Shown here: piece by piece, positions 5,588-19,650 of the stretch | Layout: the number at the start of each line of letters is the position of its first letter | How positions within the stretch are numbered: the stretch's first letter is position 1 | Assembly (NCBI RefSeq): GCF_011046245.1 | Contig: NZ_CP049241.1 | Location: forward strand, 3,364,001-3,428,000 | Direction of reading: 5' to 3' | Length of the DNA stretch: 64,000 nucleotides | DNA from: Allorhizobium pseudoryzae | Lineage (GTDB): Bacteria; Pseudomonadota; Alphaproteobacteria; Rhizobiales; Rhizobiaceae | The notes under the pieces: model-generated | What the model was told of the DNA's origin: nothing | The model's input: only the letters and a program-made list of their open reading frames with translations | The model's database searches: none | Position numbers and translations under genes: made by a program

Positions 5588-5663
<76 letters not shown>

Positions 5664-5671
5664 TCCCCAAA

Positions 5672-6850
5672 TTATGGGTTTGATTTCTCATCTCTTTTTC
5701 CCTCGTTTGTCTCGCTTGTCTTTCCGCCGCCGGAAAACGAGACACTTTTGAGTTTTTCATGCGCTTGTCGACGCTCGTAGGCGTTCACCCTGAGCTTCCG
5801 TTTTTCCGCCTGATCGATGTAGATTTGCGCAGTTCTGAGGTTCGACCATCCGAACACGGCGCATAACTCCGGCGCGCTTGCACCGCTCTCGGCATAGGCC
5901 ACAGCCGCTGCCTTTCTAAGGCCATGCGCTGAACACTCCAGGAGCCCAGCTTCGACGCACCAGCGTTTGAACGCGTTGCCGAAGCTCTCGATCGTGAACG
6001 ATGCGTTTCGGGCATTCATTATATAGCTGCTGCCTGTCGGCGTTTTCTGCAACGCCTCGATCAGCTCCGGCGTTAGACGAGATTCGATCTCGACCGGGAA
6101 GCGGTTCCGAGCCTTGTAGGCCGTAAACCGCAGCCAACGCTGACCGTCTCGCATGAACTCGTTGCGGGGACCGATCGATGCGGCATCGGATCGCCGGGCG
6201 CCGACGGTGATCATGACTTCCATCGCCAGACGCGGCACGGTCCCGATCGGCCAATGCGCGCGATAGATATCGATCTCGGCGGGCGTCCAGGTGTGGAAGC
6301 CGCCTTTCTTCCGGTTGATAGGCGCGATGCCAATGGCCGGATTGTGGCTCATCAGTTTCGGATTACGCTTCATGGCCCAGTTGAAGACGGCGCGAAGCAC
6401 CTTCACCAACTTGTCGGCAGCGCCCGGTGTATCCTTCCGGGCGAGCTGACTTCGCTCCATGTCCTCGCGTCGGTACTTCTTATAGGGATGATCTCCCGCC
6501 TTCTCCGCGAACCGGCTCAATACGCTTCGCTTGTCCTTCTGCGTGGCCTTGTCCAGCCGCATGAACTCCGGCGATCGGTAATACTGGTCGAACAGCCAGT
6601 TGAATGTCTCTTCCCGAATCACAGGGGCTTTCGGCTTTGCCGCTTCCTCACCGGCGGCATCACCCCGCAACTCCGTAATAGCCGCGAAATAGGCCAGCAT
6701 GAAATCCTGCGTGATCTCGCCAGCCGCATCCTTGAACGGCTGGCGAATGCGCTTCTTTTGGAACCGCCCGCCGATCTTCAGGCGAACATAAAAGCGGTCC
6801 CTTCCCTTCTCATCCGGATCATGCACCAGGTATCGCAGTTGGGTTTTCAT
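5672..6850 (-). CDS. site-specific tyrosine recombinase (integrase)
   Basis: This phage-type integrase would catalyse integration and excision at the tRNA-Val site. The catalytic domain is in the C-terminal half: the first Arg lies in MITVGARRSDAAS, the HxLR box is HGLRKAAAVAYAESG, and the nucleophile Tyr is in AQIYIDQAEK. The N-terminus has a basic arm-binding region. The ATG at 6850 gives 392 residues and shares one base with the stop of the upstream excisionase-like gene (TGATG); a TTG one codon earlier is not needed. Its end lies directly beside attL, the normal place for an element's integrase. Confidence 0.93.
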   Translation of the reverse strand: MKTQLRYLVHDPDEKGRDRFYVRLKIGGRFQKKRIRQPFKDAAGEITQDFMLAYFAAITELRGDAAGEEAAKPKAPVIREETFNWLFDQYYRSPEFMRLDKATQKDKRSVLSRFAEKAGDHPYKKYRREDMERSQLARKDTPGAADKLVKVLRAVFNWAMKRNPKLMSHNPAIGIAPINRKKGGFHTWTPAEIDIYRAHWPIGTVPRLAMEVMITVGARRSDAASIGPRNEFMRDGQRWLRFTAYKARNRFPVEIESRLTPELIEALQKTPTGSSYIMNARNASFTIESFGNAFKRWCVEAGLLECSAHGLRKAAAVAYAESGASAPELCAVFGWSNLRTAQIYIDQAEKRKLRVNAYERRQAHEKLKSVSFSGGGKTSETNEGKRDEKSNP

Positions 6851-7167
6851 CAAACCACGACCCCGTCAAACGGGTTTGGTCCGTCGTCGAGGGCATCACC
6901 CTCGGCCGCTTCCTGAAGGTCGCGCCAGGCGCTTCGAACCTTCTCGGCATCCCATAGAGCAATACCGCCCACCCTGACAGCCTGAGGCATCCTGCCGGCT
7001 CGAACCCATCCGTCAAAGGTTGACGGGGAAATTCCGAGCGTAGCCGCCGCTTCGTCGCGCCTCAGGGCGATTCTCTGCAGGGAAATCGTTCGAAGTGTCG
7101 GCTGAACGCTCTTCCTCTTCCGAATTGGCGGCTTGCCGCTCTCCTCTGATGTCGCTACCCGAGCCAT
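6850..7167 (-). CDS. excisionase/AlpA-like helix-turn-helix protein
   Basis: A 105-residue protein with a MerR-like winged helix-turn-helix at about residues 30-80 (RRDEAAATLGISPSTFDGWVRAG followed by VGGIALWDAEKV). This is the fold of small phage excisionases and AlpA-type activators of integrase genes. It is coupled by TGATG junctions both to the upstream small gene and to the integrase, so the three form one operon. I infer that it directs excision or controls the integrase. The N-terminus is basic and probably flexible. Confidence 0.8.
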   Translation of the reverse strand: MARVATSEESGKPPIRKRKSVQPTLRTISLQRIALRRDEAAATLGISPSTFDGWVRAGRMPQAVRVGGIALWDAEKVRSAWRDLQEAAEGDALDDGPNPFDGVVV

Positions 7168-7352
7168 CACTCTTCCTCGATAAGATCAGATTCCGCGTAC
7201 CAATAGGCATCACGCCCGGCGATCTTCAGATCGAGGCGGACGAAGTAGCGATGACGGCCAGTGATAGCTTCCGCCCGCACTTCGATCCTGCCGGACTTGC
7301 GGCTTCTCAAGATCGTCACCCGTTGGCCAAGGCCAAACTTGAGCTTTTCCAT
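7167..7352 (-). CDS. small beta-rich protein (61 aa)
   Basis: Function unknown. The sequence (GLGQRVTILRSRKSGRIEVRAEAITGRHRYFVRLDL, given here only in outline) alternates beta strands and turns and resembles small SH3-like barrel proteins common in phages. It is the first gene of the unit that ends with the integrase and shares one base with the next start (TGATG). The product ends in acidic residues (ESDLIEEE). Confidence 0.6.
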   Translation of the reverse strand: MEKLKFGLGQRVTILRSRKSGRIEVRAEAITGRHRYFVRLDLKIAGRDAYWYAESDLIEEE

Positions 7353-7368
7353 GATTCCCGCCCCGCCA

Positions 7369-8991
7369 TCATGCCGACGCCGACGCCTGCGCGTCCACCA
7401 GGTCGATACGGCTCAAGGCGGTATCAAGGCAGCGGGCGGCGGCTTCCGTCGTGCGGGCGATGTCGGAAATGACCTGATGACAATCCGCGAAGGGCGTGGC
7501 CAGCGGCATCACGGTAATCTGTCGAAGCGCCTGGTGCGCCAGCCGCACCATGGCTTGCGCTTCCCGCACGACCTCGTAGACCGCGTCGAGATCGGCCGCT
7601 TGACCGATGCGTTCGGCGGACTTTGAGACAGGCGCGGCCTCCAACTCTTGCTTACGGAAGAAAGTCAGAGCACTGCACACCAGAGGCTTGACCAAGGGAC
7701 TGGCGCAAGCAAATCCATCAAGTTCTCGAACGACCACTTCGAGCGCCAGCAAGCTTTCCGGAACACTGACAGCTGCCCCCTTCCACTCGGAAAGCACATC
7801 CATCGGGCACCCGTATGTCTCTTGATCGAAGCCCTCCGGAGGTTCGCCATCGAAGTGCGCGGCTTCATACGCGGCCATCCCGCGATGATAGTCGGCGATT
7901 GCTTGCGTAAGGCTGAGTGTGGCCGACCCAACATCAGCCGACGCATCGAGGTCCGTTGTACCGGCATCGCGGGCAGATAGCCCCTCGCCCCGCCCCTGCG
8001 CGTCCACCAGGTCAATACGGCTCAAGGCGGTATCGAGGCAGCGGGCGGCTGCTTCCGTCGTGCGGGCGATGTCGGAAATGTCCTGATGAAAATCCGCGAA
8101 GGGCGTGGCCAACGGCATCACGGCAATCTGCCGGAGCGCCTGGCGGGCAAGCCGCACCATGGCTTGCGCCTCCCTTACACCGTCATAGATCCGGTCCCTG
8201 TCAATGTTCAGCGTCTCGCTTGCGTCAAGCTTCACCACATCGGCATCATCACCGACCGGTACCTTTTCGAGAAAACCGAGTGCGGCAGACACAAGGGAGA
8301 AGATGAGAGGTGATTCTTCGAAGTCCTTTGCTTCATCTCGGACCAGCCGCAGCGCCTCCAGCGCATCAGCCATATTGGCCGCCGGACTATTCCACGCTTT
8401 CAGCGCCTCAAGCTGCGACGTCCAGGGCCGAACCTCGGTCATGTCCGGTTCGACACGGTGCAGATCTTCGGCCATTGCCCGTTCCCATGTCGCGCGGAAT
8501 GTCGCTATTGTCTCAGAAAGACCGAGCGTTGAAGTCTCGCCAGCAGACGGCACATCAGTCTTCGCTTGAAAGGATTGCTCCCGGAAAAAGGGAGCCAGAC
8601 TGCGCAACCATTCCGCCATCTCGTCGGCATATTCAGAGGCCTCCGGCGTAAAAAGCCACAGTTTGGCATCCTCGAACTTGAGAAGGCCGTCAGCCGGGCT
8701 TTTGACCGGATGTCCGTAAAACTCGAGGCGATACTTCAGCGCGTTCCTGTCGCGCTGGGCCATAGCCCTCCGGATCTGTCGAACTTCAGGCAGTTCCTCG
8801 AACAAGGCCTGCGCATAATTGCCTTTGCCATGCTCCGCCTGAAAAGCCGGCAGATGCTGCTTCCTCAGATCCTGAAGTTTTTCCTCCAAGGCGTCGAACG
8901 CGATGTTATTGAAGTCGTACTTCCACTGCAGCGCCTGCAGCCCGGGACTTGCCTCGGCAAGGGCTTTCGGTGTATTGCTGTCCATGTTCAT
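7369..8991 (-). CDS. large helical protein with an internal duplication (540 aa)
   Basis: I do not recognise a family. The protein is mostly helical and soluble, with no signal peptide. It contains two near-identical segments of about 65 residues, at about 270-333 and at the very C-terminus (473-536), each including VREAQAMVRLA and ARTTEAAARCLDTALSRID. The underlying DNA is also nearly identical, which indicates a recent duplication. Start is either the ATG at 8991 or the ATG at 8985; the latter sits better behind AGGAG. It lies between the regulators and the integrase operon. An interaction or regulatory role in the element's life cycle is possible but unproven. Confidence 0.6.
   Translation of the reverse strand: MNMDSNTPKALAEASPGLQALQWKYDFNNIAFDALEEKLQDLRKQHLPAFQAEHGKGNYAQALFEELPEVRQIRRAMAQRDRNALKYRLEFYGHPVKSPADGLLKFEDAKLWLFTPEASEYADEMAEWLRSLAPFFREQSFQAKTDVPSAGETSTLGLSETIATFRATWERAMAEDLHRVEPDMTEVRPWTSQLEALKAWNSPAANMADALEALRLVRDEAKDFEESPLIFSLVSAALGFLEKVPVGDDADVVKLDASETLNIDRDRIYDGVREAQAMVRLARQALRQIAVMPLATPFADFHQDISDIARTTEAAARCLDTALSRIDLVDAQGRGEGLSARDAGTTDLDASADVGSATLSLTQAIADYHRGMAAYEAAHFDGEPPEGFDQETYGCPMDVLSEWKGAAVSVPESLLALEVVVRELDGFACASPLVKPLVCSALTFFRKQELEAAPVSKSAERIGQAADLDAVYEVVREAQAMVRLAHQALRQITVMPLATPFADCHQVISDIARTTEAAARCLDTALSRIDLVDAQASASA
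7386..7583. repeat. direct repeat copy A inside the 540-aa gene
   Basis: About 198 bp match positions 7995-8192 in the same orientation with only scattered differences. The offset of 609 bp is a multiple of three, so the repeat preserves the reading frame and encodes the duplicated protein segment. Confidence 0.85.
7995..8192. repeat. direct repeat copy B inside the 540-aa gene
   Basis: This is the partner of 7386-7583. The match begins at CCTGCGCGTCCACCAGGTC and fades after the codons for the VREAQAMV segment. It could allow recombination that deletes 609 bp in frame. Confidence 0.85.
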
Positions 8992-9035
8992 TACTCCTTT
9001 TGGGGTGTGGTTAGAAAAGCCGACGCACGAGTTTC

Positions 9036-9209
9036 CTAGGCTCGCGGTGCGTCGGCTTTTTCGTTTTCCAGCGGATCGAACATCGCCCGATGTAAGTGAA
9101 ATACGATCTCGGCATTCATAGATCGCTGGTTCCGCTCTGCCTCTTCTTTGATTCTCGATCTCAATCCGTCAGGCATACGAACGAAATATGTCTCGCGTTC
9201 GCTTTTCAT
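9036..9209 (-). CDS. Arc-type ribbon-helix-helix repressor (57 aa)
   Basis: A minimal Arc/MetJ-fold protein: a short strand (TYFVRMPDGLRSRI) followed by two helices (KEEAERNQRSMNAEIVFHLHRA). The RSMNAEI helix is the family hallmark. The start chosen at 9209 (MKSERET) follows a GGAG box; two upstream in-frame ATGs are possible. It is divergent from a second protein of the same fold at 9313, and three copies of a palindrome lie between them. I infer autoregulation and control of the divergent promoter as the element's decision switch. Confidence 0.85.
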   Translation of the reverse strand: MKSERETYFVRMPDGLRSRIKEEAERNQRSMNAEIVFHLHRAMFDPLENEKADAPRA

Positions 9210-9224
9210 ATTCATCTCCATAGG

Positions 9225-9307
9225 TGCAAGTTGCATCTATGCATACGCTGACATAATGGGTGCATGATTGCAAGTCGCACTCATTGATTTTTTGGGTGCA
9301 AGTTGCA
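9225..9307. promoter_or_regulatory. operator cluster TGCAAGTTGCA (three copies) between divergent ribbon-helix-helix genes
   Basis: The 11-bp palindrome TGCAAGTTGCA occurs perfectly at 9225-9235 and 9297-9307 and with one mismatch at 9269-9279. The cluster fills the space between two divergent Arc-like genes, so it is very likely their shared operator. The outer sites abut the two start codons. Confidence 0.75.
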
Positions 9308-9312
9308 ATCAC

Positions 9313-9771
9313 ATGGCTATGAGTGATGAAAACAAATACCCGAGCCAGTTAGCTGAACGCTTTCAGATCCGATTGCCGGATGGGATGAGACAGATCCTCA
9401 AGGATGCCGCGGCTGAAAACGGCCGCTCGATGAATTCGGAGATCATCGTCCGGCTACAGGAGAGCTTGGAATTTCAGCAGTACGTCGCCGCACATCCGGT
9501 CCCGCCTGATGAAGTCATTGATGAATATTTTGATCGACAAGCCTCAAGCGAGCCCCTACCGGTGGCAGACGCTCCGAAGGCGGTAACGGCCAAGTCTTCG
9601 ATCGACGATATCGCTGGAGTGTGCTGGCAGATGATTGCGAGGGAGAGTAAGCCGCTGCCGCGTGATAAGATTGAAGAGCTCGAAATGCTCTACCTCAGTA
9701 TCAAGGAACGGGAAGCTGAAGACAGGCGCAAGTTCATCCAGCTCGCTAAAGATCTGCTGCGATCGCGATAA
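9313..9771 (+). CDS. Arc-type ribbon-helix-helix regulator with helical C-terminal extension
   Basis: Residues about 10-60 form an Arc-like domain (ERFQIRLPDGMRQILKDAA, then RSMNSEIIVRLQES), closely related to the divergent 57-residue protein. It continues with a linker and a charged, mostly helical C-terminal part (residues 90-152) that may mediate oligomerisation. The ATG at 9313 is preferred because the upstream frame would begin inside the operator; 9319 is also possible. Two related regulators facing each other over shared palindromes look like a Cro/CI-style switch built from Arc proteins. Confidence 0.82.
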   Translation: MAMSDENKYPSQLAERFQIRLPDGMRQILKDAAAENGRSMNSEIIVRLQESLEFQQYVAAHPVPPDEVIDEYFDRQASSEPLPVADAPKAVTAKSSIDDIAGVCWQMIARESKPLPRDKIEELEMLYLSIKEREAEDRRKFIQLAKDLLRSR

Positions 9772-9840
9772 CCCTGTTTCTGGGTGCCGATAACCTGATA
9801 TTTTCGGAACGCAGAGCGGTTCAGAAAGGTCGCTGCACCC

Positions 9841-10044
9841 ATGTCCGAAGCGCAACCAACCCAAACAACTCGCACCAGAGTCAGCGAAAAGGCGCTACGC
9901 CTTACTCTGAAGGCTATAATGGATGCCGGACTGACGATCGACAGAGTGTCAATAACAGGCGCCCGTGTCGACATTCACTGCTCGCCTGTCAGCACTGACC
10001 AGCAGGATAGCCGTCGCACAGGTTTTCAACCGGAGCCCTGGTAA
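9841..10044 (+). CDS. small protein, divergent member of a three-copy family (67 aa)
   Basis: Function unknown. The core SEKALRLTLKAIMDAGLTID followed by RVSITGARVDI has the same pattern (helix, Ala-Gly turn, beta hairpin) as the two proteins encoded at 10084-10278 and 10327-10521. It is on the opposite strand to them. Similar small proteins are frequent in rhizobial mobile DNA, but none that I know has an assigned role. Confidence 0.6.
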   Translation: MSEAQPTQTTRTRVSEKALRLTLKAIMDAGLTIDRVSITGARVDIHCSPVSTDQQDSRRTGFQPEPW

Positions 10045-10083
10045 GGCCCGATCTGAAGGCGGAAATTATTTCCGACGTGTCCT

Positions 10084-10278
10084 TCAGAAATACCCTCTGG
10101 AACTAGCCTCAAACTGATCCGGCATCAGTTCGTCTCCACTACGGGCGCGATCGCCGTTGATGACGACGGTGCCATCCGGCTCGATCCGAACGGTGCGGAT
10201 CTCGACGCCAGCCTTTTGCACCGCCTTGATTGCCCGCGTGATCGCGTCCTGCGTAAAGGGTATTGTTCGCCGTCCCAT
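10084..10278 (-). CDS. small paralogous protein, copy 1 (64 aa)
   Basis: Function unknown. It begins MGRRTIPFTQDAITRAIKAV and continues with a predicted beta hairpin (VRIEPDGTVVINGD). The neighbouring gene at 10327-10521 encodes a protein of exactly the same length and clearly homologous sequence, so the pair arose by tandem duplication. The start at 10278 is fixed by this alignment; an upstream ATG at 10326 would add 16 unrelated residues. Confidence 0.7.
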   Translation of the reverse strand: MGRRTIPFTQDAITRAIKAVQKAGVEIRTVRIEPDGTVVINGDRARSGDELMPDQFEASSRGYF

Positions 10279-10326
10279 GCTTGATCTTCCGCGTTGTCCA
10301 TTCAGCCACGCACGGTGTGCAGGCAC

Positions 10327-10521
10327 TTAGAGATAAGGCTTCGGCCGCGACACAAGTTCTGCATGCATAAGAGCGTCGTCGCTGTCGATGCAGTCGCCGT
10401 TGATGACGACGGCGCCATCCGACTCGATCCGCACGCTTCGAATCTCGATACCAGACTGTTTCACCGCGCGAATGGCACGCACCACGCTGTCCTGTGTGAA
10501 GGGTATCTTTCGCCGTCCCAT
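10327..10521 (-). CDS. small paralogous protein, copy 2 (64 aa)
   Basis: Function unknown. The sequence MGRRKIPFTQDSVVRAIRAV and the following VRIESDGAVVINGD align throughout with the product of 10084-10278. It is the first gene of this leftward group, 48 bases upstream of its paralogue. An AAGGAGGG-type box lies just before the start. Confidence 0.7.
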   Translation of the reverse strand: MGRRKIPFTQDSVVRAIRAVKQSGIEIRSVRIESDGAVVINGDCIDSDDALMHAELVSRPKPYL

Positions 10522-10903
10522 GGCCCTCCTTTCGAAGTCTTGCGGCGGTCCTTACCGGATCGCCACGCCGTCGGGAAGCATACGTGGAAGACCGCGCCGT
10601 TCACAGTAAACGCGGGACTTACTGCGTGATGATTCGGTGTTCGCCAATAAGATTTTGAAAAGACTTCGGTTTTCTTGCTTCGGAAGACGTTTCCGCTGTG
10701 TTCTCACCAAGAACGAATCAAGAAGGGCGCAGACGCAAGTGCAAAAAACGAGGAAAATCTTCCAAAATCGCACGGAAGATAAAAATATAAAGAAAAAATC
10801 TTCTACGGTCTGTGGAAATGTGGGGATGAAACACGCATTGCTTGACTCGAGTCAGCCTAATGGTTGATTAATCCTCCGTCGACGCAGAATCATCTGCGAT
10901 GAC
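10522..10903. other. AT-rich control region between divergent halves of the element
   Basis: No gene is supported here. The stretch contains several copies of GGAAGA/TCTTCC, including ATCTTCC and GGAAGAT as an inverted repeat near 10756-10781 followed by an A-rich run. It separates leftward genes (to 10521) from rightward genes (from 11054) and is a likely site for promoters and regulator binding. Confidence 0.4.
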
Positions 10904-11056
10904 CGACACGACAAAGCCGGGGGTGCAACCCCGGCTCCGTGTCGCAACCGCAACGACCTTGGAGGGCTTGCGGACGCTGTTAACACACCGGAGGAGTACT
11001 CCGTCAACGCGTTTCCTGTCAAGTTCTCCAAGGTCATATAAGGACAACTTTATATG
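10904..11056 (+). other. hairpin-rich region, possible structured RNA or leader of the 11054 gene
   Basis: Nested inverted repeats follow each other. CGACACG (10904-10910) pairs with CGTGTCG (10938-10944) around a GCCGGGG/CCCCGGC stem (10916-10935). GACCTTGGAG (10955-10964) pairs perfectly with CTCCAAGGTC (11026-11035) around a palindrome GGAGTACTCC (10993-11002). CATATAA (11035-11041) pairs with TTATATG (11050-11056) over the start codon of the next gene. The last stem would occlude or expose that start. It does not match an RNA family that I know. Confidence 0.45.
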
Positions 11057-11245
11057 ACTGCACACATGCGAAGACTGAGCTTTGACGACGCCGTGAAGGT
11101 CTGGCTCTACAGATGGAATGGGCAGTTTCAGCACCAAATTGCTGCATACTTTGGCGTAAACCAAGGGCGGATCAATGAGGTTCTGAAAGAGAAGCGTCAC
11201 GTCGGAAGCCGACAGATCGCCGCCCGAATGAGGGGGGCTTCCTGA
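11054..11245 (+). CDS. small helix-turn-helix protein (63 aa)
   Basis: The sequence FDDAVKVWLYRWNGQFQHQIAAYFGVNQGRINEVLKEKRH (quoted here in part: HQIAAYFGVNQGRINEVL) is a clear helix-turn-helix of the type found in small phage and rhizobial DNA-binding proteins. AAGGA precedes the ATG at proper spacing, inside a predicted hairpin. The stop shares one base with the next start (TGATG). It is probably a regulator of the rightward genes. Confidence 0.72.
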   Translation: MTAHMRRLSFDDAVKVWLYRWNGQFQHQIAAYFGVNQGRINEVLKEKRHVGSRQIAARMRGAS

Positions 11246-11526
11246 TGTCAGAGCACTTGCTGAAAATGATCTGCGCTGAATGCAGAATCTCTCCGCAGCT
11301 TTCGACGAACTCCGAAGGCGAAGAGTGGTGCACATGTCCCACTTGCGGAGTAGCGGACACAAAGGCGAACGCTGTCGCCGAGATGGCAGCGCATGTTACC
11401 GAAGTTAGCGCCCGTGCACTTCAGACCGGTATTCGCCGGTCACTGAGAGGCACCAAGGGCCTCAGGTTCGATGGCAAGCCGATCCCGCAGGGAAGCTATC
11501 GGTTCATTGCGGAGCTTAACTCCTGA
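11245..11526 (+). CDS. zinc-ribbon protein (93 aa)
   Basis: Function unknown. The N-terminal half has two CxxC pairs (MICAECRIS and WCTCPTCGVAD), the pattern of a zinc ribbon. The rest is a helix (NAVAEMAAHVTEVSARAL) and a basic tail. It is coupled to the upstream helix-turn-helix gene by a TGATG junction and followed by a strong hairpin, so the two genes form a closed operon. A nucleic-acid-binding or adaptor role is plausible. Confidence 0.65.
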   Translation: MSEHLLKMICAECRISPQLSTNSEGEEWCTCPTCGVADTKANAVAEMAAHVTEVSARALQTGIRRSLRGTKGLRFDGKPIPQGSYRFIAELNS

Positions 11527-11532
11527 CAGCGG

Positions 11533-11552
11533 CGGCGGGCTTCGGCCCGCCG
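11533..11552 (+). terminator. hairpin with TTCG loop after the zinc-ribbon gene
   Basis: CGGCGGGC and GCCCGCCG form a perfect 8-bp stem closed by a TTCG tetraloop, 6 bases after the stop codon. There is no U-run, so termination may be weak or the stem may protect the 3' end. Confidence 0.6.
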
Positions 11553-11701
11553 TTCACTGATGCCTGAGCCCGATGAGCACAGCCGGCACTTTGTGCTGAA
11601 GACCTTTTCGGTATGCCGTCGTAATCCGCGCTGGGGTCTGAATGGCAGCTATTGATGTGCATACAACAATCCTAATGACATCCCGCTCGGACAACGGATC
11701 A

Positions 11702-11715: not shown

Positions 11716-11782
11716 GATGAAGCCTCTTGACTCGCGCTACCTTGCGTGACGAACTTCGTGCCTAAGTTGCTAAGGGACGCGT

Positions 11783-12730
11783 ATGCTCCAGAAAAATCGT
11801 CGATACGTTCTATATTTTGACTTGTCTATGGCTCCGCATCCAGCCGATGCGCCGCCCATCGATTTGGCCGTGGTTTTGCCTGAGTTGAAGAAAAGATGCG
11901 ACAATGGCGTAGCTGTCGAGACGATTGATGCCGAGCGGAGAATAATTCGACTCAGCAATATGGCGATCGTCAAGCTGGCAGACGGCAGTGACGGAATGGC
12001 TATGCTCTTCTGTCTCGGAGACAGGGAGAAGGCTGATACTGGCGTGACAAATGTTCACACAGGGAAGGTGAGGATCTTCGAGAAAGACAATGATGAAGTG
12101 GGCGGGCTATCGGTGCACGTAGTTGCTAGAATGACCCCCGCAACGCCAGGCAGCTTTTTCTACCGTATGGTGATGGAAGATGTCCCGGGTTTCGGGAGAA
12201 CATTGATCCAGAACTTTCTTCGGTCGCAGTTCCGGGTCATTTGCGACGAATTGAGCTTCACCTTCAAGCGTAACGAAAAAAGCGAGGTAAAAACTCGCCC
12301 GATGGTCGAGCTAGTCGGTCACGCATCCGAAAAGCTGAAAAATTCGATCGCAGAAGGACGCCTACTTCACGTTGAACTGATCGATTATGTTGAACAGGAC
12401 TTTGGGTTCGACGAGGCGAAGTTCATCAAGCAGGCACGCAAAAATCTGAACCTCTCCATCTCAAAGAAACTCCCCGAAGGCGATCAACTTAGCATGGTCG
12501 AGAAAATCAAGGTATGGGCAAAGGGAGCCGGATATGAGAGCATGAGGGTCCGGTGGAAGGATCCCGAGAGCACAAAGCCCCAGAGCGCCAAGCTAGATAC
12601 TGCCAAGCAGGACGCTGGTGAAGCGTTTTTTATCCGTACGGCTGAGGTCAAATTCACAACACCGTTGCCTGATATATGCGAAACAATGAGTGGGGAACTG
12701 GTGACCGAAATGAAGAAGCTTCTGGTTTGA
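11783..12730 (+). CDS. unknown cytosolic protein, first gene of a two-gene cassette (315 aa)
   Basis: I do not recognise a family. There is no signal peptide or membrane segment. The N-terminal half looks beta-rich (YVLYFDLSMAP, then IRLSNMAIVKLADG), and the C-terminal half is mixed with charged helices (FIKQARKNLNLSISKKL). AAGGGA sits at good distance before the ATG. The next gene starts one base after its stop and encodes a four-helix membrane protein, so the two almost certainly work together. The pair is cargo of a satellite-like element, a known hotspot for anti-phage systems. The cytosolic-plus-membrane layout resembles Kiwa in general form, but I see no sequence evidence for that. Confidence 0.65.
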   Translation: MLQKNRRYVLYFDLSMAPHPADAPPIDLAVVLPELKKRCDNGVAVETIDAERRIIRLSNMAIVKLADGSDGMAMLFCLGDREKADTGVTNVHTGKVRIFEKDNDEVGGLSVHVVARMTPATPGSFFYRMVMEDVPGFGRTLIQNFLRSQFRVICDELSFTFKRNEKSEVKTRPMVELVGHASEKLKNSIAEGRLLHVELIDYVEQDFGFDEAKFIKQARKNLNLSISKKLPEGDQLSMVEKIKVWAKGAGYESMRVRWKDPESTKPQSAKLDTAKQDAGEAFFIRTAEVKFTTPLPDICETMSGELVTEMKKLLV

Positions 12731-12731
12731 T

Positions 12732-13352
12732 ATGTGGCGATTATTCGTCCCATTGAAGTATCTGCGAATTAGCCATCCGGAAAAAATCAAGTTTGACCTG
12801 GTTTTTCCGGTGGTTTTTGCGTGCTTCTTTTTCCTGCCTGTCTTCTCCTCGCAGTTTCGGGAAGATGCCCTCAAAGGCATAGACGTATTGGGGCGTTCAA
12901 GCGACCTTCTCAGCATACTCACTGGTTTCTTTGTTGCATCGCTTGCTGCTGTGGCAACTTTTGGCGGCGACGAAATGAATCAGCCAATGCCTGGTTCGAG
13001 CCCGATGTTGCTAAAACACAGCGGTAGCGCACCGCCAGAAGAGTTAACCCGTCGAAGATTTCTTTGCTTCCTATTTGGATACTTGGCCTTCACCTCCCTC
13101 GGTATATACCTCGGGGGATTTGCGTATTTTGCCGTTCAAGCATACATCTTGGAAAAATACTGGCCGGATTCAGTAATTTATTCCTTTGTCGTATTCTGGG
13201 GTTTGTACGGGCTGGCTCTCGGCAACCTACTCTCGAATACCCTACTGGGGCTGTTCTATCTGACTGATCGAATTCATCGCCCCAACCACATTGTACGATG
13301 GAAGGTCAACAGACCTGAAGATGATGGGAAAACCCCATCCAAAGTAGCTTGA
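12732..13352 (+). CDS. four-helix membrane protein, second gene of the cassette (206 aa)
   Basis: Hydrophobic segments lie at about residues 24-40, 60-78, 110-137 and 148-177. The loop between helices two and three is about 30 residues and polar (GGDEMNQPMPGSSPM), and there is a basic C-terminal tail (NHIVRWKVNRPEDDGK). No signal peptide is seen. It starts one base after the upstream gene and has no convincing ribosome binding site of its own, so translational coupling is likely. Codon use is more AT-rich than in the host genes. As inner-membrane partner of an unknown cytosolic protein it could be the effector of an abortive defence system; that is inference. Confidence 0.65.
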   Translation: MWRLFVPLKYLRISHPEKIKFDLVFPVVFACFFFLPVFSSQFREDALKGIDVLGRSSDLLSILTGFFVASLAAVATFGGDEMNQPMPGSSPMLLKHSGSAPPEELTRRRFLCFLFGYLAFTSLGIYLGGFAYFAVQAYILEKYWPDSVIYSFVVFWGLYGLALGNLLSNTLLGLFYLTDRIHRPNHIVRWKVNRPEDDGKTPSKVA

Positions 13353-13669
13353 CTTCTGTTTGCAGATTTTGGCCGGCCTGCACCTATAGCGAATTCCAGA
13401 CTGCCATTTCGACCGTCTAGTCTGCCCTCAGGCTGCCATACGAATTGCAAACCGTCTGGAACGACGCTTGCGCCCATCAACTGCCCCCATTGATGAATGT
13501 TTGTTCGGCAACCGACACAAGGGCAGACGTTGATAATGCGGCCCAACGACCTGTTGGCAGTATCTCTGGGTCTCATCCGCAAACACCAAACCGCCGGAGC
13601 CGATAAACAAGCTCCGGCGGTTCGCCTGGCGCGGGACTCCTCCATACAGGAGCCGCCATCTCGCTGCAC
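13353..13669. other. convergent intergenic region after the cassette
   Basis: The space between the rightward cassette and the leftward capsid gene carries a strong hairpin at 13589-13622. A minus-strand frame with a CPCVGC motif runs through it into the end of the membrane gene, but it lacks a ribosome binding site. I see no other gene. Confidence 0.45.
13589..13622 (-). terminator. terminator of the capsid operon
   Basis: AACCGCCGGAGC and its perfect 12-bp complement enclose a 10-base loop. On the minus strand a T-rich stretch (TTTGGTGTTT) partly overlaps the end of the stem. It lies 48 bases downstream of the capsid stop codon. Confidence 0.65.
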
Positions 13670-15394
13670 TCAGCGAGAAGCTAGAACCACGAACGGCGAG
13701 CGCGTTGAACCGCCGTTGAATGGGGTGACAGGGCTTGCAAAGGCCGGCTGTCCATCAACCCGCAGCACAAAGCGCCAGATCAGCTCATCATTGAGGAATC
13801 TGACATGAGCGGACAATGCCGGCGTGGTGCCGCCATCGACGATGATGTACTGACCGAGGTCTGCAAGGACGATGTCGCCCTTGGAACCGAGAACAGGGCA
13901 CTGCTCAACCGCAATCACTGGACGCCCCTTCAAGAGGGGATATTGATTGCCCTCCGACGATCCGGCAGGCATGTAGAGCGACGAGGCAGACGGAGACGGA
14001 GATCCGGAAGCGCCGACGACGTTGGTCAACTGCTCAAGCTGCTGCTCCGCATCCTCGTTGACCAGCCATACAGCTCGCTTCCTCGATGGTGCAGGAAGTC
14101 GCGACCACATGTTGCGAACGTTTTCGGCGATGATGGTTCCCGACGCCTGCCCCGTTTCCTTGTCGACCACGATTGTCGCGGGTGCATTGACGATGCCGAG
14201 CATCTGGCCTGTACCGTTGCCTGAGAGAACCGAGAGATCGAGCTTGAACGAAGCTTCCGCAGCGAACCCGCGACGGATATGCGTCTCCAGCATCGGAACA
14301 TCCTGCATCAGCTCGGTTGTTCCACGCACCAGGCAGATCAGCTTCTTGCTGGAGAAGTCGATATGCCGGAAGCGCGGTAGCGATGCGCTGACTTCTTCAG
14401 CTTCAGCCGCCCAGTACGATTGCAGCCCGCCCCAGCGAGAGCCATCAGCTCGCGACGTTTCATCGACCGCCGGCATCTTGATGTCAGCGAGAGGAGCGGA
14501 TGTCATCCGGCGATCGCAGCGCGCCGCGATCTCGCTTTCCTCGTAGAGACTGCCGATCAGCTCATTGACAAAGTTCTGCTGGACAAGAAACCCGCCGAAG
14601 GCTGCGTCACCTTCATTCAACCCTGTCGGCGCCCGGACAAGGCGCGGATCGGTGTTTTCCGGGCGCAGGACAGCGTTGCGGATTGCAACGAGCTGACTGC
14701 CAAGGGTCGGAAACCTGACCCCACCACCGATAGCAGGATCCGCGATAGCCGACGGGTAGACCGCCGGAGCGCCGGCCGCGCGCCGCACGGCGGCGAGTGT
14801 GTCTCGGGACATGAGTGTATCCTTTTGATCGAGCGCTTTCTCAGCCCAACTCCGCATTGGCGCCGTGTCGATACCGCAGCTTCGTGCCGACGCCAGTGCA
14901 GTCGGTAGTGAGGGAACCGGAACCTGCGAGATTTCAAGAAGATCAACTTGCTCGAAATCGACGCCTCCGGGCCGTGAACGGTCATTTGCCAACCGCCATT
15001 TGAGCGGGTTCCAACTGACCGAGGTCGCATTCAGGAAGCCTTCCTTGACCATCCGGAATACGGTTTCCGCCATCGGGTTCATGTCCGCAGTGGCATATTC
15101 AACAGTTCCGGACAGCACACCGCCGATTTCTCCAAGCTCGACCACTCGCCCAATGGGGAGTTGCTTCGAATCGTGAGCCCAAAGAAAAACCGGATTACGC
15201 AAAAAGTTCGCGAATTCCCATGCGCCGGACAGGATGCGGTGACTGTCACGAGCGACCGTATCGTCGGAAAACCGGTAACGGATCAAACGACCATTGTCGT
15301 TTGCCATTGCGACAACACCTGCTGACCGCAGGCAAGCGCCGGAAGGCAAACGACCCTCACGGATAAGAATGGATGTGTCGCTTGCCCGTGTCAT
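13670..15394 (-). CDS. HK97-type prohead protease fused to major capsid protein (574 aa)
   Basis: Residues about 10-175 match the HK97-family prohead protease: the His region NPVFLWAHDSKQLPIGRV, the Ser region GFLNATSVSW, and LLEISQVPVPS. Residues about 230-570 match the HK97 gp5 capsid fold: FGGFLVQQNFVNELI, DIKMPAVDE, LIRRGF-like helices around ETHIRRGFAAEASFKLDL and GNGTGQMLGIVNAP. Many phages encode these as two genes or as such a fusion. It is expressed leftward and overlaps the upstream helical gene by four bases (ATGA). No portal, terminase or tail gene accompanies it, so the capsid probably packages the element with helper-phage parts. Confidence 0.88.
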   Translation of the reverse strand: MTRASDTSILIREGRLPSGACLRSAGVVAMANDNGRLIRYRFSDDTVARDSHRILSGAWEFANFLRNPVFLWAHDSKQLPIGRVVELGEIGGVLSGTVEYATADMNPMAETVFRMVKEGFLNATSVSWNPLKWRLANDRSRPGGVDFEQVDLLEISQVPVPSLPTALASARSCGIDTAPMRSWAEKALDQKDTLMSRDTLAAVRRAAGAPAVYPSAIADPAIGGGVRFPTLGSQLVAIRNAVLRPENTDPRLVRAPTGLNEGDAAFGGFLVQQNFVNELIGSLYEESEIAARCDRRMTSAPLADIKMPAVDETSRADGSRWGGLQSYWAAEAEEVSASLPRFRHIDFSSKKLICLVRGTTELMQDVPMLETHIRRGFAAEASFKLDLSVLSGNGTGQMLGIVNAPATIVVDKETGQASGTIIAENVRNMWSRLPAPSRKRAVWLVNEDAEQQLEQLTNVVGASGSPSPSASSLYMPAGSSEGNQYPLLKGRPVIAVEQCPVLGSKGDIVLADLGQYIIVDGGTTPALSAHVRFLNDELIWRFVLRVDGQPAFASPVTPFNGGSTRSPFVVLASR

Positions 15395-16014
15395 GGCTTC
15401 ACCGCCGGAAGTTCGTTGCGCAGGAGCTGAAGACGCTCCGAGATGTTCGACTGATCAGCTTCAAGCTTCATTCGCTCTGCAGCGTCCATCGCATCTCGGA
15501 TAGCGGCAATCCGCTGGTTCACGGATTCGAAATTGCTTTCGAACCGGCGACTGATCTTGCCAGTGACAGGGTGTCTCTCAACGATTTCCTGAGAAACTCT
15601 TGTCGAGCGATGCGCTTTGTCCAACTCATCACGCATGTCGGAAGTGAACAGATCGATGGCCGGATCGTAGGATTGCAAGAGCTGCCTCGTCAGTTCGTCG
15701 AACTGATGATCAAGGTCCTGTCCGACCCACATATGCTTCCGGAACAATTCACCGTAAGCCACCTTTGCATCATGTAAAGCTCTCTCGGCCGCCTGGACGA
15801 CATCGGCCTGCTTCTTCAGATCAAGTGTCTTTTGATGAAAGTGCTTCTCACGTTGGATGTCGAGCTTATCACGCAATTGCACCGCAACCTTGCGCTCTTC
15901 AGCAAGGCGAAGGGCCTTTTCGGCCTTCGCCTTCTGCACAACGCTCGATCCCTGCAACAGCGCCAGCGTCTCGGCAGCGCCTGGTACTTCCGGGAACGTC
16001 TCCACCTTGGTCAT
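15391..16014 (-). CDS. coiled-coil protein upstream of the capsid gene (207 aa)
   Basis: Function unknown. Residues about 25-95 are strongly heptad-like and charged (KAKAEKALRLAEERKVAVQL, DIQREKHFHQKTLDLKKQAD), and the C-terminal part is also helical. It lies directly upstream of the capsid fusion and overlaps its start by ATGA. Position and coiled coil suggest a scaffolding or size-determining protein for capsid assembly; that is inference. The start at 16014 (MTKVETFPEV) follows GAAAGG; the longer frame from 16044 is less likely. Confidence 0.65.
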   Translation of the reverse strand: MTKVETFPEVPGAAETLALLQGSSVVQKAKAEKALRLAEERKVAVQLRDKLDIQREKHFHQKTLDLKKQADVVQAAERALHDAKVAYGELFRKHMWVGQDLDHQFDELTRQLLQSYDPAIDLFTSDMRDELDKAHRSTRVSQEIVERHPVTGKISRRFESNFESVNQRIAAIRDAMDAAERMKLEADQSNISERLQLLRNELPAVKP

Positions 16015-16050
16015 TGAAGCAACCTTTCTCGTTCGTTCAAGCATCCGCGA

Positions 16051-16512
16051 TTATTGTGGAAACGAAAAGCGCATTTTGTGCCGCCCGTTTCGCTTGTAAA
16101 AACAATCACCTGAAAGAATGGCTATCAACCGTTTATCGGAGATCGGAGGCGAACCGTCGCTATGTCTGAAGACGAGAAAGAGCAACTCATCACGCGTTCC
16201 GACATAGTTCGGAGGCGGCCGGTCTCGGTCCCGATCATAGCGCCAGCGGCCAGCCTCATAGTTTCGGCATAACCGGCGCAGTTCATCTCGCCGGGCGAGA
16301 TCCCCACCAATCGTGTAGCCCTCGTACAGCCGCCGCAATGCATCGTCTCTGACGAACATGTCGGCTGGCAGCCCGGCAAGTATGAGAGCCAACCAACCGG
16401 CAAGCCACCTCCCATCGTCACCGCCGATGACGTCCGCAGCGACGACAGCGATGCGCTGAAGCCGCTCCCGGTCTTCTCGACTGATCCGGATCTCGGGTAC
16501 ACCCTTGCCCAT
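16051..16512 (-). CDS. unknown protein of the capsid operon (153 aa)
   Basis: I do not recognise a family. It starts MGKGVPEIRISREDRERLQR; a central hydrophobic helix (WLAGWLALILAGLPADMFV) could be buried or peripheral to a membrane. The C-terminus is Arg/Asp-rich (RYDRDRDRPPPNY) and basic. It begins three bases after the zinc-finger gene and is followed by the coiled-coil gene, so it belongs to the same leftward unit. A small-terminase or connector role would fit the position, but the sequence does not show it. Confidence 0.55.
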   Translation of the reverse strand: MGKGVPEIRISREDRERLQRIAVVAADVIGGDDGRWLAGWLALILAGLPADMFVRDDALRRLYEGYTIGGDLARRDELRRLCRNYEAGRWRYDRDRDRPPPNYVGTRDELLFLVFRHSDGSPPISDKRLIAILSGDCFYKRNGRHKMRFSFPQ

Positions 16513-16515
16513 CGC

Positions 16516-16905
16516 TCACCCCTTCAAGCGCCGAGAGCGGCGTTCACGGTCGGTGCGAGCCCGTCCTCGGCGTTGACAAGCGACCGAGCAGTAGTGCGGA
16601 ATTCGTCCGGGCCTGATGACATCGACGAAGAACGGAGCGTTACATTCCCAGCAGATCAAGCCGTCAGATCGATTTGCCTTGCCTGTGTCTTGGGTTGCGC
16701 GCCAAGCCTTTTTGCTTTCTCTTCTCGCTACTTCAGAACACTGTTGCGAGCAGTAGCGTGGCTGCCGGCCTCCCCGTCTGTTCCAGAGGAACGACACACC
16801 GCATATGGCACACACGATCGGAGGGGCACCGATACCAGGCAAGCCAAGCTGGAGAGCCTCATCTCCCGAGTGGGAAATATTATCTGCTTTCGTCATATTC
16901 GACAT
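16516..16905 (-). CDS. protein with two TRASH-like zinc fingers (129 aa)
   Basis: Two copies of a CxxC...YCSxxC motif are visible: CAICGVSF with RYCSQQCSEVARR, and CWECNAPF with HYCSVACQRRGR. Each resembles a treble-clef finger of the TRASH/MYM or HNH-like class that binds nucleic acid. A basic tail (RARTDRERRSRRLKG) supports nucleic-acid binding. It is the first gene of the leftward capsid operon, next to the iteron region. The start at 16905 (MSNMTKADN) is chosen for lack of a better one; 16896 is possible. It could act in packaging-site recognition or transcription control. Confidence 0.6.
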   Translation of the reverse strand: MSNMTKADNISHSGDEALQLGLPGIGAPPIVCAICGVSFLWNRRGGRQPRYCSQQCSEVARRESKKAWRATQDTGKANRSDGLICWECNAPFFVDVIRPGRIPHYCSVACQRRGRARTDRERRSRRLKG

Positions 16906-17142
16906 ACAGATACGCTCTAATACGCTGTTTTCATTATCTTTTTTCAATTGCCCGGCCCCCGAAAGTGGGCAGCAAGCCCTGTTGGAAGGGAAATATTCGA
17001 GCCGCAAATAAAAAATCTGCGCATGAGACCTGTGCGGTTACGACCCTTGGGTCGGCCTGAGGATTTAAACCCCCTACCCCCTCACTCGCCCGGCCGCCCC
17101 GAACTGAAGCGCGTTCGCCTGACTGGTGAGGTCTACTCACGC
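16906..17142. other. promoter-side gap of the capsid operon
   Basis: This part of the gap between the zinc-finger gene and the iteron array holds no supported gene. It should contain the leftward promoter of the capsid operon. A minus-strand frame runs through it into the array, but its product is low-complexity and translates the repeats. Confidence 0.4.
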
Positions 17143-17433
17143 GCTCCAGTCCGGCACGCCCTACCGCCTCGCCAGACCGACGCTTACCCACACCCGGATG
17201 CAGGCCGCTCCAGTTCGCTCCAGTGCTCCAGTCATCACCCCCCCTAAAGGGGGTGTGACTGGACTGCGCCGGACGGCTTGACTGGAGCAAACTCGAGCCG
17301 GCCTTCAGAGCATCCTTTGCGCTCCAGTGCTCCAGTCTGCTCCAGTTGGTATATTGAACTGGAGCGCCCTCAAAATCTGAGGGGTTTTGCTCCAGTGCTC
17401 CAGTGCGCTCCAGTTCATAAAAAGGACTGGAGC
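17143..17433. repeat. iteron array, 13 copies of GCTCCAGT: probable replication origin
   Basis: The octamer GCTCCAGT occurs ten times on the plus strand (starts 17143, 17207, 17217, 17225, 17321, 17329, 17339, 17389, 17397, 17407) and three times inverted (17281, 17358, 17426). Sites 17321-17365 and 17389-17433 repeat the same layout exactly 68 bp apart: two sites 8 bp apart, a third 10 bp on, then one inverted site. Hairpins CACCCCC/GGGGGTG near 17237-17256 and CCCTCA/TGAGGG at 17367-17383 lie between modules. The array ends 10 bases from the replication ATPase gene, as in iteron origins of plasmids and P4-like satellites. Confidence 0.85.
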
Positions 17434-17442
17434 AGCGTGCGA

Positions 17443-18849
17443 TCACACCCATTCTCCGACCCTCACAAACGCGCGGTCACGTCGCTTTTCGTCCTTCACC
17501 AGCTCGATCCGGAGCGCGCCGGCGTCGATCCACTTCGCCAGCAGCCTCTTGATCTTGTGGCGCCCCAGAGGGCTGCCGGCATCGATGGTGAGCACCTCCG
17601 CGACGACCGTTCCTGCCCAGGTGCTGGCGCGAATATCCTCCCGGAAATCGCCCCTGCTGATCGCCACCTGAACCGCCTTCAGGTTCTCGATCGTCACACC
17701 GTCGAAGGCGTCAGGCGGCGCCCAGCGCGACACGACGCCGACGTGATCGCCGTTCGGCAGCACCACGTTGCGCAGCTCGTACCATTCGGACAGCTCCGGC
17801 GGCGGCGCCATGTTCGACTTGTCGTCGAAGGCCCGGAAGAAGTTCCGATGCTGGGTGATACCGAACTCTTTCCCTTCGTCTGCCGACATGCGGTTGATGG
17901 TTCGAACGACGCGGGCCGCGTCCGTCAAGGCTTTCCCGCCTCGCGAGCTTTCTGCCGTCACCTCCGCATCAGATCCGAGCTTGCGCGTATGGTGCACCAG
18001 GTGGATTGCGCAGCCGCAGGCGTCGGCCAAGCGTCCCCAGGTCTTGGCCACCTTGTCGATGGCCATGTTATCGTTCTCGCTGACGGAGTGGCTTGAAACG
18101 AACGGATCAACGATCAGCACGTCGATCTTTCTCGCGATCAGCTCTTCAGCCAGAGCCGCGACAACGGGCTTAATGATAACCGTTCTGCCCTTCGGATCGG
18201 ATTGAGCGATACACAGACCTTGCAACCTACCACTGTCGACGAACAGACCGTCGGACAGATCCTCGGCTGAAATGTCATAATGCTCGCACGCCGCCTGAAT
18301 TCTTCGTTGCAGCTCGTCGGCAGGGTCTTCAAGGTTCCACAACCAGACCCGCAGACGCTCCTCTGGCTGCTTTCCCAGCAGCGGGCGCCCGCTGACCATG
18401 GAAAGCGCCTCGACCATCGTCAGGGAGCTTTTGCCGACGCCACCAGGCGAAACCGTCACGGTGACGAACCCCCGGATCAACTGGCGCCCGTAAAGCCATC
18501 GCCGTTTCGGGATGTTTGAAGGGTCCGTCCAGACGTACGGCGTTGCCGTAACGAGTTTCTGGCCATTGGCGGGCGCGTCCCCGAACAGCTCCGGGATGTC
18601 GATCTTCTGAGCCTTCAACTCTCGTAGAAGTAGCTCTCTTCCTCGCTGCGGATTCTTGTGGAGATACTCCCTAAGCTCTCGAGCAACAGTAACCTCGTCG
18701 AGAGCCGACCACGTTTCGTTCATTATCAACACGTCGAAGGGAACGCGCGTTTCTAGCCCTTTTCGTATCCTTTCCTTCGCGCGGTTGGCGTATTCTTGGA
18801 GCTCCTCCTCGGAGACCTGCCTACATTCGATCTTATTCGGCTTTTTCAC
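17443..18849 (-). CDS. RepA-like replicative ATPase/helicase loader (468 aa)
   Basis: The central domain (about residues 110-330) is a RecA-fold ATPase of the RepA/AAA_25 class: Walker A VSPGGVGKSSLTMVEALSMV, a Walker B region IDVLIVDPFVSSHSVSEND, and a following IHLVHHTRK sensor segment. The C-terminus could be a winged helix (SPLGRHKIKRLLAKWIDAGAL). A GTG at 18849 with GGAGG seven bases upstream is the best start; it overlaps the upstream gene by 17 bases, and the longer frame to 19065 reads shadow sequence. I infer that it unwinds the element at the adjoining iterons. No primase domain is evident, so host primase may be used. Confidence 0.85.
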   Translation of the reverse strand: MKKPNKIECRQVSEEELQEYANRAKERIRKGLETRVPFDVLIMNETWSALDEVTVARELREYLHKNPQRGRELLLRELKAQKIDIPELFGDAPANGQKLVTATPYVWTDPSNIPKRRWLYGRQLIRGFVTVTVSPGGVGKSSLTMVEALSMVSGRPLLGKQPEERLRVWLWNLEDPADELQRRIQAACEHYDISAEDLSDGLFVDSGRLQGLCIAQSDPKGRTVIIKPVVAALAEELIARKIDVLIVDPFVSSHSVSENDNMAIDKVAKTWGRLADACGCAIHLVHHTRKLGSDAEVTAESSRGGKALTDAARVVRTINRMSADEGKEFGITQHRNFFRAFDDKSNMAPPPELSEWYELRNVVLPNGDHVGVVSRWAPPDAFDGVTIENLKAVQVAISRGDFREDIRASTWAGTVVAEVLTIDAGSPLGRHKIKRLLAKWIDAGALRIELVKDEKRRDRAFVRVGEWV

Positions 18850-19489
18850 AGCCTCGCCTCCACTCGTTGGCGCTGTCGCGGATCTGGAGGGCGTCGGATA
18901 GAGGCAAGCGATACTTGTAGCAGATCGTTCCGCCGCGCATGCCGCGCTTGCCGAGCAGGTGGCGGATGTAGTTATCGTTTCTGGCCAAACGGCGCCGCTC
19001 TGCAGCGTCGTCGATCTTCGCCGGATCAAGCCGATAGGTGTTCGGCAGGCTTCGCTTATTGCCAATCAGCATGGCGTTGCGCAGCGCAAGCCTCGCTGCC
19101 TCATAGCGGGCCAAGGTGTCACGGACCATCCACACGAATAGCCGGCACTCCATGACGCTGAGATCGAACCGCGCGACCGTGAAGGAAAAGCAGTCGTCTC
19201 GATGGAAAAAGTGCTCCATGGCCCGCGTCAGTCGAGCCTTGCGCCGATCGTCGAGAAGTCGGGCCGAAGGCTTCTTCAGCCCCACGCGATCCCGCAGCCT
19301 GTCGCGGCCACGGGACCAGAATTCAATGCCGCCATCGACCATCGATCGCAGGCTCATCATGTCAGATGGGATGAGCTGGTAGGTTGCGATCAGGTCGACG
19401 ATCTGCATCTCGCCAGCGACCAGGGAAGCAAACGGCGCGGCCAGACGCCCATGCTTAGCCTCAAACTCGGAGCGTAGCCGGTAGGTCAT
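18833..19489 (-). CDS. unknown protein upstream of the replication ATPase (218 aa)
   Basis: I do not recognise a family. The protein is basic, mostly helical and soluble (LRDRVGLKKPSARLLDDRRK; ARYEAARLALRNAMLIGN). It starts behind a GGAGG box seven bases from the ATG at 19489 and overlaps the replication gene, so it is the first gene of the replication operon. A role as replication accessory or iteron-binding initiator would fit, but there is no visible motif that proves it. The left-hand promoter must lie between 19490 and attR. Confidence 0.6.
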   Translation of the reverse strand: MTYRLRSEFEAKHGRLAAPFASLVAGEMQIVDLIATYQLIPSDMMSLRSMVDGGIEFWSRGRDRLRDRVGLKKPSARLLDDRRKARLTRAMEHFFHRDDCFSFTVARFDLSVMECRLFVWMVRDTLARYEAARLALRNAMLIGNKRSLPNTYRLDPAKIDDAAERRRLARNDNYIRHLLGKRGMRGGTICYKYRLPLSDALQIRDSANEWRRGCEKAE

Positions 19490-19634
19490 GGATTAACCTC
19501 CATACTACGAAAGGGAATGGCAACTACCGGCCTTTCCCGCGAGACACTCGTTCTGGCCAAGCACTGAAAACGCTCAACTTTTCCAAGTGTCTCAAAATCC
19601 CATAAAATACCGGAAAATCTCACAAATGGCGGGT
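19490..19634. other. AT-rich stretch between replication operon and attR
   Basis: This stretch should carry the promoter of the replication operon and possibly integrase arm sites. The phrase AAAATCCCATAAAATACCGG stands out as AT-rich. A minus-strand frame crosses attR into the chromosome and is not supported. Confidence 0.4.
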
Positions 19635-19650
19635 TCTCATCGCCCACCAT
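19635..19650. repeat. attachment site attR (TCTCATCGCCCACCAT)
   Basis: This exact 16-bp copy of the tRNA-Val 3' end marks the distal boundary of the element. Bases outside the repeat on both sides differ from those at attL. Confidence 0.88.

Follow-up and report, generated by a model that had tools for sequence, protein, structure and literature searches.

The 64-kb window analysed here (positions 3,364,001-3,428,000 of contig C1, 3,646,231 bp, in the 5.38-Mb genome of Allorhizobium pseudoryzae) carries a 14.0-kb element enclosed by two copies of the end of a tRNA-Val(TAC) gene. We propose that this element is probably a phage satellite, integrated and intact, and that it belongs to a family encoding its own capsid. 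Its dependence on a helper and its packaging are inferred from gene content. The family was not found described in the literature searched: titles and abstract beginnings, with subscription papers and preprints outside the scope, yielded no account of a Rhizobiales satellite that encodes a capsid, nor of any capsid-encoding satellite devoid of terminase large subunit (TerL) and portal genes.

A discrete unit in tRNA-Val

The site of integration is defined by three features:
5588..5663, + strand: tRNA-Val(TAC), target of integration (ARAGORN; Rfam)
5649..5664, + strand: attachment (att) repeat, copy 1, within the tRNA 3' end (exact repeat search)
19635..19650, + strand: att repeat, copy 2 (exact repeat search)

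The 16-bp direct repeat TCTCATCGCCCACCAT corresponds to the final bases of tRNA-Val(TAC) plus one. Both copies are exact and, allowing up to one mismatch, the window contains only these two sites (5649-5664 and 19635-19650), with no match in 100 shuffles; the 14-kb unit that an earlier, sequence-only reading had drawn between them therefore stands. With its integrase and direct-repeat borders the element is a discrete integrated unit, as are its bounded relatives described below. Its G+C content at 9-14 kb (0.50-0.55) is below that of the host DNA at 20-26 kb (0.60-0.66).

A capsid operon with two conserved partners

The genes of the capsid operon lie together on one strand:
13670..15394, - strand: prohead protease - HK97 major capsid protein fusion, 574 aa (PF05065 E 7e-36, PF04586 E 3.5e-5, TIGR01554 E 2e-44)
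15391..16044, - strand: p217, a long coiled coil that adjoins the capsid gene in relatives, proposed scaffold (homologues; AlphaFold2)
16051..16512, - strand: p153 (gene A), conserved partner of p217 (homologues; AlphaFold2)
16516..17007, - strand: double zinc-finger protein, HNH-like (phrog_1271 HNH endonuclease E 2e-7)

Read from right to left, the order is zinc-finger protein, p153, p217 and protease-capsid fusion. The zinc-finger and coiled-coil neighbours of the capsid gene had already been noticed in the sequence-only reading, which had missed that the capsid protein itself is fused to its protease. Within the protease, residues H74, S125 and E154 are invariant across 29 sequences; we take them to be the catalytic ones. 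The HNH label of the zinc-finger protein is based on the family match (HNH PHROGs, E 2e-7) and not on a motif.

Further information about p217 and p153 was obtained from AlphaFold2 models. The p217 model (predicted local distance difference test score, pLDDT, 86) contains a single 92-residue helix (34-125) and a smaller C-terminal part; this predicted long helix and the position beside the capsid gene suggest that p217 is a scaffold. The p153 model (pLDDT 83) is helical, its C-terminal end being unsure. Structure comparison gave no named match for either model. Homologues of both proteins co-occur in seven distinct loci (the window, L011, L012, L059, L082, L105 and L111), and the 366-aa nr protein P0137 is a natural p153-p217 fusion: its residues 45-128 match a p153 profile built without P0137 (whole-protein E 3e-13), and residues 156-362 match a p217 profile that includes P0137. 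None of the 50,697 phage records matched p153 or p217 of the window, or p217 of L012, at E <= 0.01. Among phage records, the best-ranked capsid matches are Bradyrhizobium phage ppBdUSDA122-1 (32% identity) and Streptomyces phage Dagobah (38%).

No recognised packaging motor, portal or tail

Pfam and PHROGs were applied to 20 chosen open reading frames (ORFs), and no TerL, portal, tail or lysis gene was recognised among them. The sequence-only reading had likewise found none, and had called for profile searches for TerL, portal and tail. These were run on all ORFs of at least 50 aa with a panel of hidden Markov models (HMMs), iterated from the TerL and portal proteins of Dagobah, ppBdUSDA122-1 and plasmid pTT14-8, and gave no match within the element. 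The same panel detected TerL in 154 and a portal in 211 of the 321 sources collected. By these searches the element lacks a complete virion gene set, as a satellite would. Besides capsid and protease, the sole packaging-type match among the 20 ORFs is that of the excisionase-like helix-turn-helix protein to a terminase-small-subunit PHROG (E 1.5e-4), and an HMM for the P27 small terminase (TerS) had no match in the window at E <= 0.1. As for a tail function of p217, its weak tape-measure match (E 0.01) is not credible for a protein of 217 aa.

Bounded relatives and the capsid clade

The order p153 - p217 - capsid recurs in three other bounded elements. L011, from Xanthobacter aminoxidans, spans 15.3 kb and is bordered by a 49-bp repeat at tRNA-Thr(CGT). 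L012, from Bradyrhizobium erythrophlei, spans 16.0 kb, with a 15-bp repeat at tRNA-Ser(GCT). L059, on an IMG/VR contig, spans 16.2 kb between copies of a 61-bp repeat of tRNA-Ser(TGA) and carries, at one end, an integrase homologous to the L011 one (27%, E 3e-16). One table of family matches showed 25 of 44 families, and Pfam was run to cover this gap; Pfam detected neither TerL nor portal in 22 (L011) and 26 (L012) chosen ORFs, the content being capsid, protease (L011 only; none was detected in L012), integrase and regulators, with a Terminase_4 small subunit in L012. The HMM panel found no TerL or portal in the L059 element (ORFs of at least 50 aa), 10 ORFs of which were compared with PHROGs; elsewhere on this contig, at about 41-62 kb, there is a separate prophage-like stretch with both genes. 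TerS occurs without detected TerL in L029 (phrog_83, E 1e-43), L013 (phrog_12559, E 2e-37) and L012 (P27 type), where protein 7719-8144 matches (33%, E 1e-7) a small terminase of the P27 family from Azospirillum phage Cd.

The capsids of these elements belong to one clade of a capsid tree with 195 rows (182 different), built by a quick method with Shimodaira-Hasegawa-like approximate likelihood ratio (SH-aLRT) supports only. The clade comprises 62 rows (support 100, stem 0.74): 53 nr fusion proteins, eight loci with p153 or p217 (window, L011, L012, L013, L059, L082, L105 and L111) and L060. All 99 phage-labelled rows fall outside it. TerL was detected in none of the nine DNA loci of the clade, against 75 of 133 outside loci, and a portal in one of the nine (L111), against 99 of 133. 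Selection accounts in part for the grouping of the nr rows with the window, since resemblance to it was the criterion for choosing them. These rows were taken from proteins P0002-P0062, without numbers 45, 46, 49, 51 and 57-60 and any protein of 500 aa or less. The tree omits too-short capsid matches and the duplicate loci L001, L139, L147, L158, L159, L164, L140, L141 and L162; loci L190-L320 lie outside it, and long branches were flagged for L149, L182, L055 and L046. Some loci of the clade are short or incomplete (L013 has 7.4 kb; L060 begins inside the capsid gene); genes missing from these are weak evidence, and the argument is based on the four bounded elements. Among the 321 sources, 11 distinct loci have p153 or p217 (duplicates and five weak matches left out), and TerL was found in none of them. 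In L082 and L105 the protease is encoded in a separate overlapping frame, where a sequencing frameshift is possible; the fusion is not universal.

Capsid relatives are sparse. Within the genus, one of 57 genomes has a match at E <= 1e-40, namely the host itself; at 1e-80 there are 3 of 394 genomes in the family, the host included, and 7 of 391 in the Bradyrhizobium family, two of which are behind L011 and L012 and one of which, by coordinates, had already been met in the order-wide search. The latter gave matches at E <= 1e-30 in 7 of 397 genomes, with coverage of the whole fusion only in the host. A protein search scored 8000 candidates and found 326 relatives, 120 of which were listed. G999, a relative assigned to the same family, and Rhizobium sp. 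NFR03 (Rhizobiaceae) have identical capsid rows.

According to these comparisons, the lineage is wider than the rhizobia. The sequence-only reading had suggested a separate rhizobial satellite lineage linked to tRNA-Val. Its view of a satellite-like, capsid-encoding element without recognised TerL, portal or tail, and unlike any named family, is supported by the three further bounded elements and by a capsid clade apart from the phage rows. The rhizobial and tRNA-Val part has to be given up, since relatives occur in Xanthobacter and Bradyrhizobium, at tRNA-Thr and tRNA-Ser, and only one of the 57 genus genomes has a capsid match at E <= 1e-40. The outcome it had named as fatal to a satellite, homologues lying consistently within larger prophages, was not seen in the clade loci.

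Integration, regulation and replication genes

The remaining features of the element are the following:
5672..6853, - strand: tyrosine integrase (PF00589 E 9e-13; motifs R220, HGLR 310, GW 335, Y345)
6850..7170, - strand: AlpA/excisionase-like helix-turn-helix protein (phrog_66 E 2e-7)
7167..7352, - strand: 61-aa protein belonging to a phage family without assigned function (phrog_8618 E 5e-6)
7369..8991, - strand: 540-aa protein with an internal repeat seen by eye (no family at E <= 0.001)
9036..9236, - strand: Arc-type regulator 1 (PF03869)
9268..9771, + strand: Arc-type regulator 2, divergent from regulator 1 (PF03869)
10084..10521, - strand: two similar tandem small ORFs (10084-10326 and 10327-10521; weak match of both to phrog_29970)
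11783..12730, + strand: PDC-M53A-like candidate anti-phage protein (PADLOC E 7e-30)
12732..13352, + strand: PDC-M53B-like candidate anti-phage protein (PADLOC E 5e-37)
17143..17433, no strand: iteron array, 13 copies of GCTCCAGT/ACTGGAGC, probable replication origin (repeat counts)
17443..18849, - strand: RepA-like AAA_25 ATPase, likely GTG start at 18849, placed by reading (PF13481 E 2e-41)
18833..19489, - strand: 218-aa protein directly upstream of repA (no family at E <= 0.01)

Of the copies of GCTCCAGT in the 291-base array, 10 are direct and 3 inverted, and one copy lies elsewhere in the 64 kb; the pattern of two spaced copies occurs three times and never in 100 shuffles. The RepA-like protein also matches part of the primase PHROGs. 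The integration, regulation, replication and capsid modules named in the sequence-only reading, with divergent Arc-type regulators and a RepA-like ATPase next to an iteron origin, are all recovered by family matches (PF00589, the excisionase-like protein, PF03869 on both strands, PF13481 with 13 adjoining iterons, PF05065). Two of the genes it had left as unknown form the candidate defence pair PDC-M53A/B; the 540-aa and 218-aa proteins still have no recognised family. This candidate pair (11783-13352, both halves matched) is carried as cargo within a satellite-like element.

Weighing the satellite and its alternatives

Several observations speak against a helper-dependent satellite. A credible small terminase was not recognised in the element by Pfam, PHROGs or the P27 HMM. 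Detection of TerL and portal is imperfect, as 13 of 85 loci of at least 10 kb outside the clade show neither. In L111, inside the clade, p153 - p217 - capsid is followed by a portal, where the locus ends, and a ParA-like gene was noted by eye; two of the five omitted weak p217 matches lie in loci with TerL and portal. Tape-measure proteins are found in L013, L105 and L182, and L082 has a relative of the L105 one; with a weak minor-tail match of an L012 ORF (phrog_416, E 9e-4), not all relatives are tail-free. The border repeat of L012 is short and has a 14-bp copy 123 bases off. Finally, the host genome was searched with PF05065, PF03354, PF04860 and PF03237, and the only other TerL/portal/HK97-capsid set is one cluster (C1:11-19 kb), which we take to be gene-transfer-agent-like, so no resident helper prophage was recognised with these four families.

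We consider it unlikely that the element is the remnant of a larger prophage that lost its TerL, portal, tail and lysis genes and kept the capsid operon. Phages that carry a portal and TerL do have capsids homologous to that of the element (43% for the Xanthobacter prophage L183), and a portal accompanies most capsids outside the clade. However, the broken genes and irregular loss of a cryptic prophage are missing: all named ORFs are open, the borders are exact, and p153 - p217 - capsid recurs without TerL and portal in the three other bounded elements, with capsids forming one clade and the three protease residues invariant in all 29 sequences.

A minimal autonomous phage, with TerL and portal diverged beyond recognition, is quite unlikely. 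It could draw on the 540-aa, 218-aa, p153 and p217 proteins, all without recognised family, and on the portal that adjoins p153 - p217 - capsid in L111. However, no relatives of the 540-aa and 218-aa proteins were found among the other loci collected, which makes a shared motor an unlikely role for them. Pfam and PHROGs usually detect TerL, and the only ATPase that these recognised among the 20 chosen ORFs of the element is the RepA-like protein.

It is very unlikely that the element is an interference or defence island, whose capsid protein would poison phage assembly while PDC-M53 provided a second defence, and which would spread by other routes. The candidate defence pair would fit, as would an L011 protein that matches AAA/nSTAND1 ATPase domains. 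Poisoning, however, needs neither a conserved maturation protease nor a dedicated conserved pair beside the capsid gene, and the own iteron origin and the small terminases of relatives also argue against it. Membership of the known capsid-forming phage-inducible chromosomal islands (cf-PICIs) would be suggested by the integrase, the AlpA-like and replication genes and an HK97 capsid and protease of its own. It is hardly to be expected, being contradicted by gene content: the portal and TerL listed in PMC10690885 were not found.

Comparison with known satellites

Staphylococcus aureus pathogenicity islands (SaPIs) and other classical PICIs carry an integrase, divergent regulators and a replication initiator with origin repeats. 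The window element resembles them in all three, and L012, L013 and L029 in having TerS without detected TerL; it differs from SaPIs in encoding its own major capsid protein. P4 has its own replication, with a P4-type primase/helicase, and Sid/Psu. Presumed replication of its own and the presumed use of a helper terminase are shared with P4-like satellites, whereas P4 has no capsid protein of its own. According to PMC10690885, SaPI scaffolding proteins make helper capsids smaller, and P4 redirects P2 capsid assembly via Sid.

The families named in two papers (PMC10690885, PMC11389934) are P4-like, PICI, cf-PICI, PLE, PICMI, VEIME, Tycheposon and Mulch/Flayer. Like a cf-PICI, the element is integrated and compact, would depend on a helper for tails, and encodes both a major capsid protein and the maturation protease, here in one ORF (Phage_capsid PF05065, Peptidase_S78). 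The cf-PICI gene set given in PMC10690885 includes portal, connectors, TerS, TerL and HNH. In the element, Pfam, PHROGs and the panel HMMs recognised neither portal nor head-tail connectors, the latter being small and easily missed, and nothing of the two terminase subunits beyond the weak match of the excisionase-like protein; besides shell and protease it has p153, p217 and the zinc-finger protein. Judged by its genes against this set, it falls outside the definition of a cf-PICI. It is set apart by gene content; according to PMC11389934, cf-PICI capsids fall in three clades of the phage capsid tree. The Mulch/Flayer satellites of Streptomyces also encode their own capsid; as described in PMC10690885, their genes include those for portal, TerS, TerL and scaffold, with no recognised primases or replicases, whereas the window element has a RepA-like gene and no recognised portal or TerL. 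ppBdUSDA122-1 and Dagobah, close as their capsids rank, are phages whose gene order is TerL, portal, protease, capsid. The separate capsid clade and the three bounded elements agree with the earlier impression that this gene set matches no satellite that could be named.

A possible satellite cycle

We hypothesize that a helper phage would trigger excision through Int/AlpA, and that RepA would act at the iterons to replicate the excised circle. A satellite-sized shell would then be built from the protease-capsid fusion, p217 serving as scaffold together with its partner p153, and the helper would supply portal, TerL and tail. The zinc-finger protein, or the small terminase in relatives, could steer the helper motor to satellite DNA. 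It is tempting to propose, as one joint claim, that this is a separate satellite lineage centred on Alphaproteobacteria that replaces only the capsid shell of its helper by its own protease-capsid, the p153 - p217 pair being a dedicated assembly adaptor to the foreign portal, motor and tail. We offer this proposal tentatively, rating its chances at somewhat below even.

As described in PMC10690885, capsid-encoding satellites carry head and packaging genes together, and classical ones without a capsid protein remodel the helper head. An intermediate with the shell only would, if true, separate shell building from motor and portal, raise the question of how a tailed-virus shell assembles on another virus's portal, and add a satellite family in Rhizobiales.

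Further observations on relatives, host and site

L082, L105, L013 and L182 combine a capsid with a tape-measure protein and no detected TerL or portal; they might be satellites that set their own tail length. In L012, a glycine-rich protein, fibre-like by eye, and a small neighbour follow the capsid gene (11947-14145); the former has no match among phage records. L029, L055 and L182 carry p153 or p217 and yet fall outside the capsid clade. This lineage and phages have probably exchanged parts, since in the phage loci L235 and L244, both with TerL and portal, one stretch shares 70-71% identity with the protease of clade member P0014. The small circular plasmid pTT14-8 of Roseomonas mucosa (L151, 16.9 kb), with annotated HNH, portal, protease, capsid and TerL, is perhaps a capsid-forming satellite or a phage-plasmid living as a plasmid.

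The gene-transfer-agent-like cluster of the host, taken over C1:1-19.9 kb (L184), contains TerL, portal, capsid and a tape-measure-like ORF, and is possibly a gene transfer agent able to act as helper.

In another species of the genus (L180, G022:C6:61500-75500), the same tRNA-Val is followed by an 11-kb stretch closed by a second copy of the tRNA end, with a TerL-like ORF, a short portal-like ORF and no match to the window capsid profile, perhaps another satellite type or a remnant. In a further species (L179, G018:C1:54000-67000), the tRNA is followed by a 10-kb stretch that appears by eye to be a cytosine-methyltransferase restriction island.

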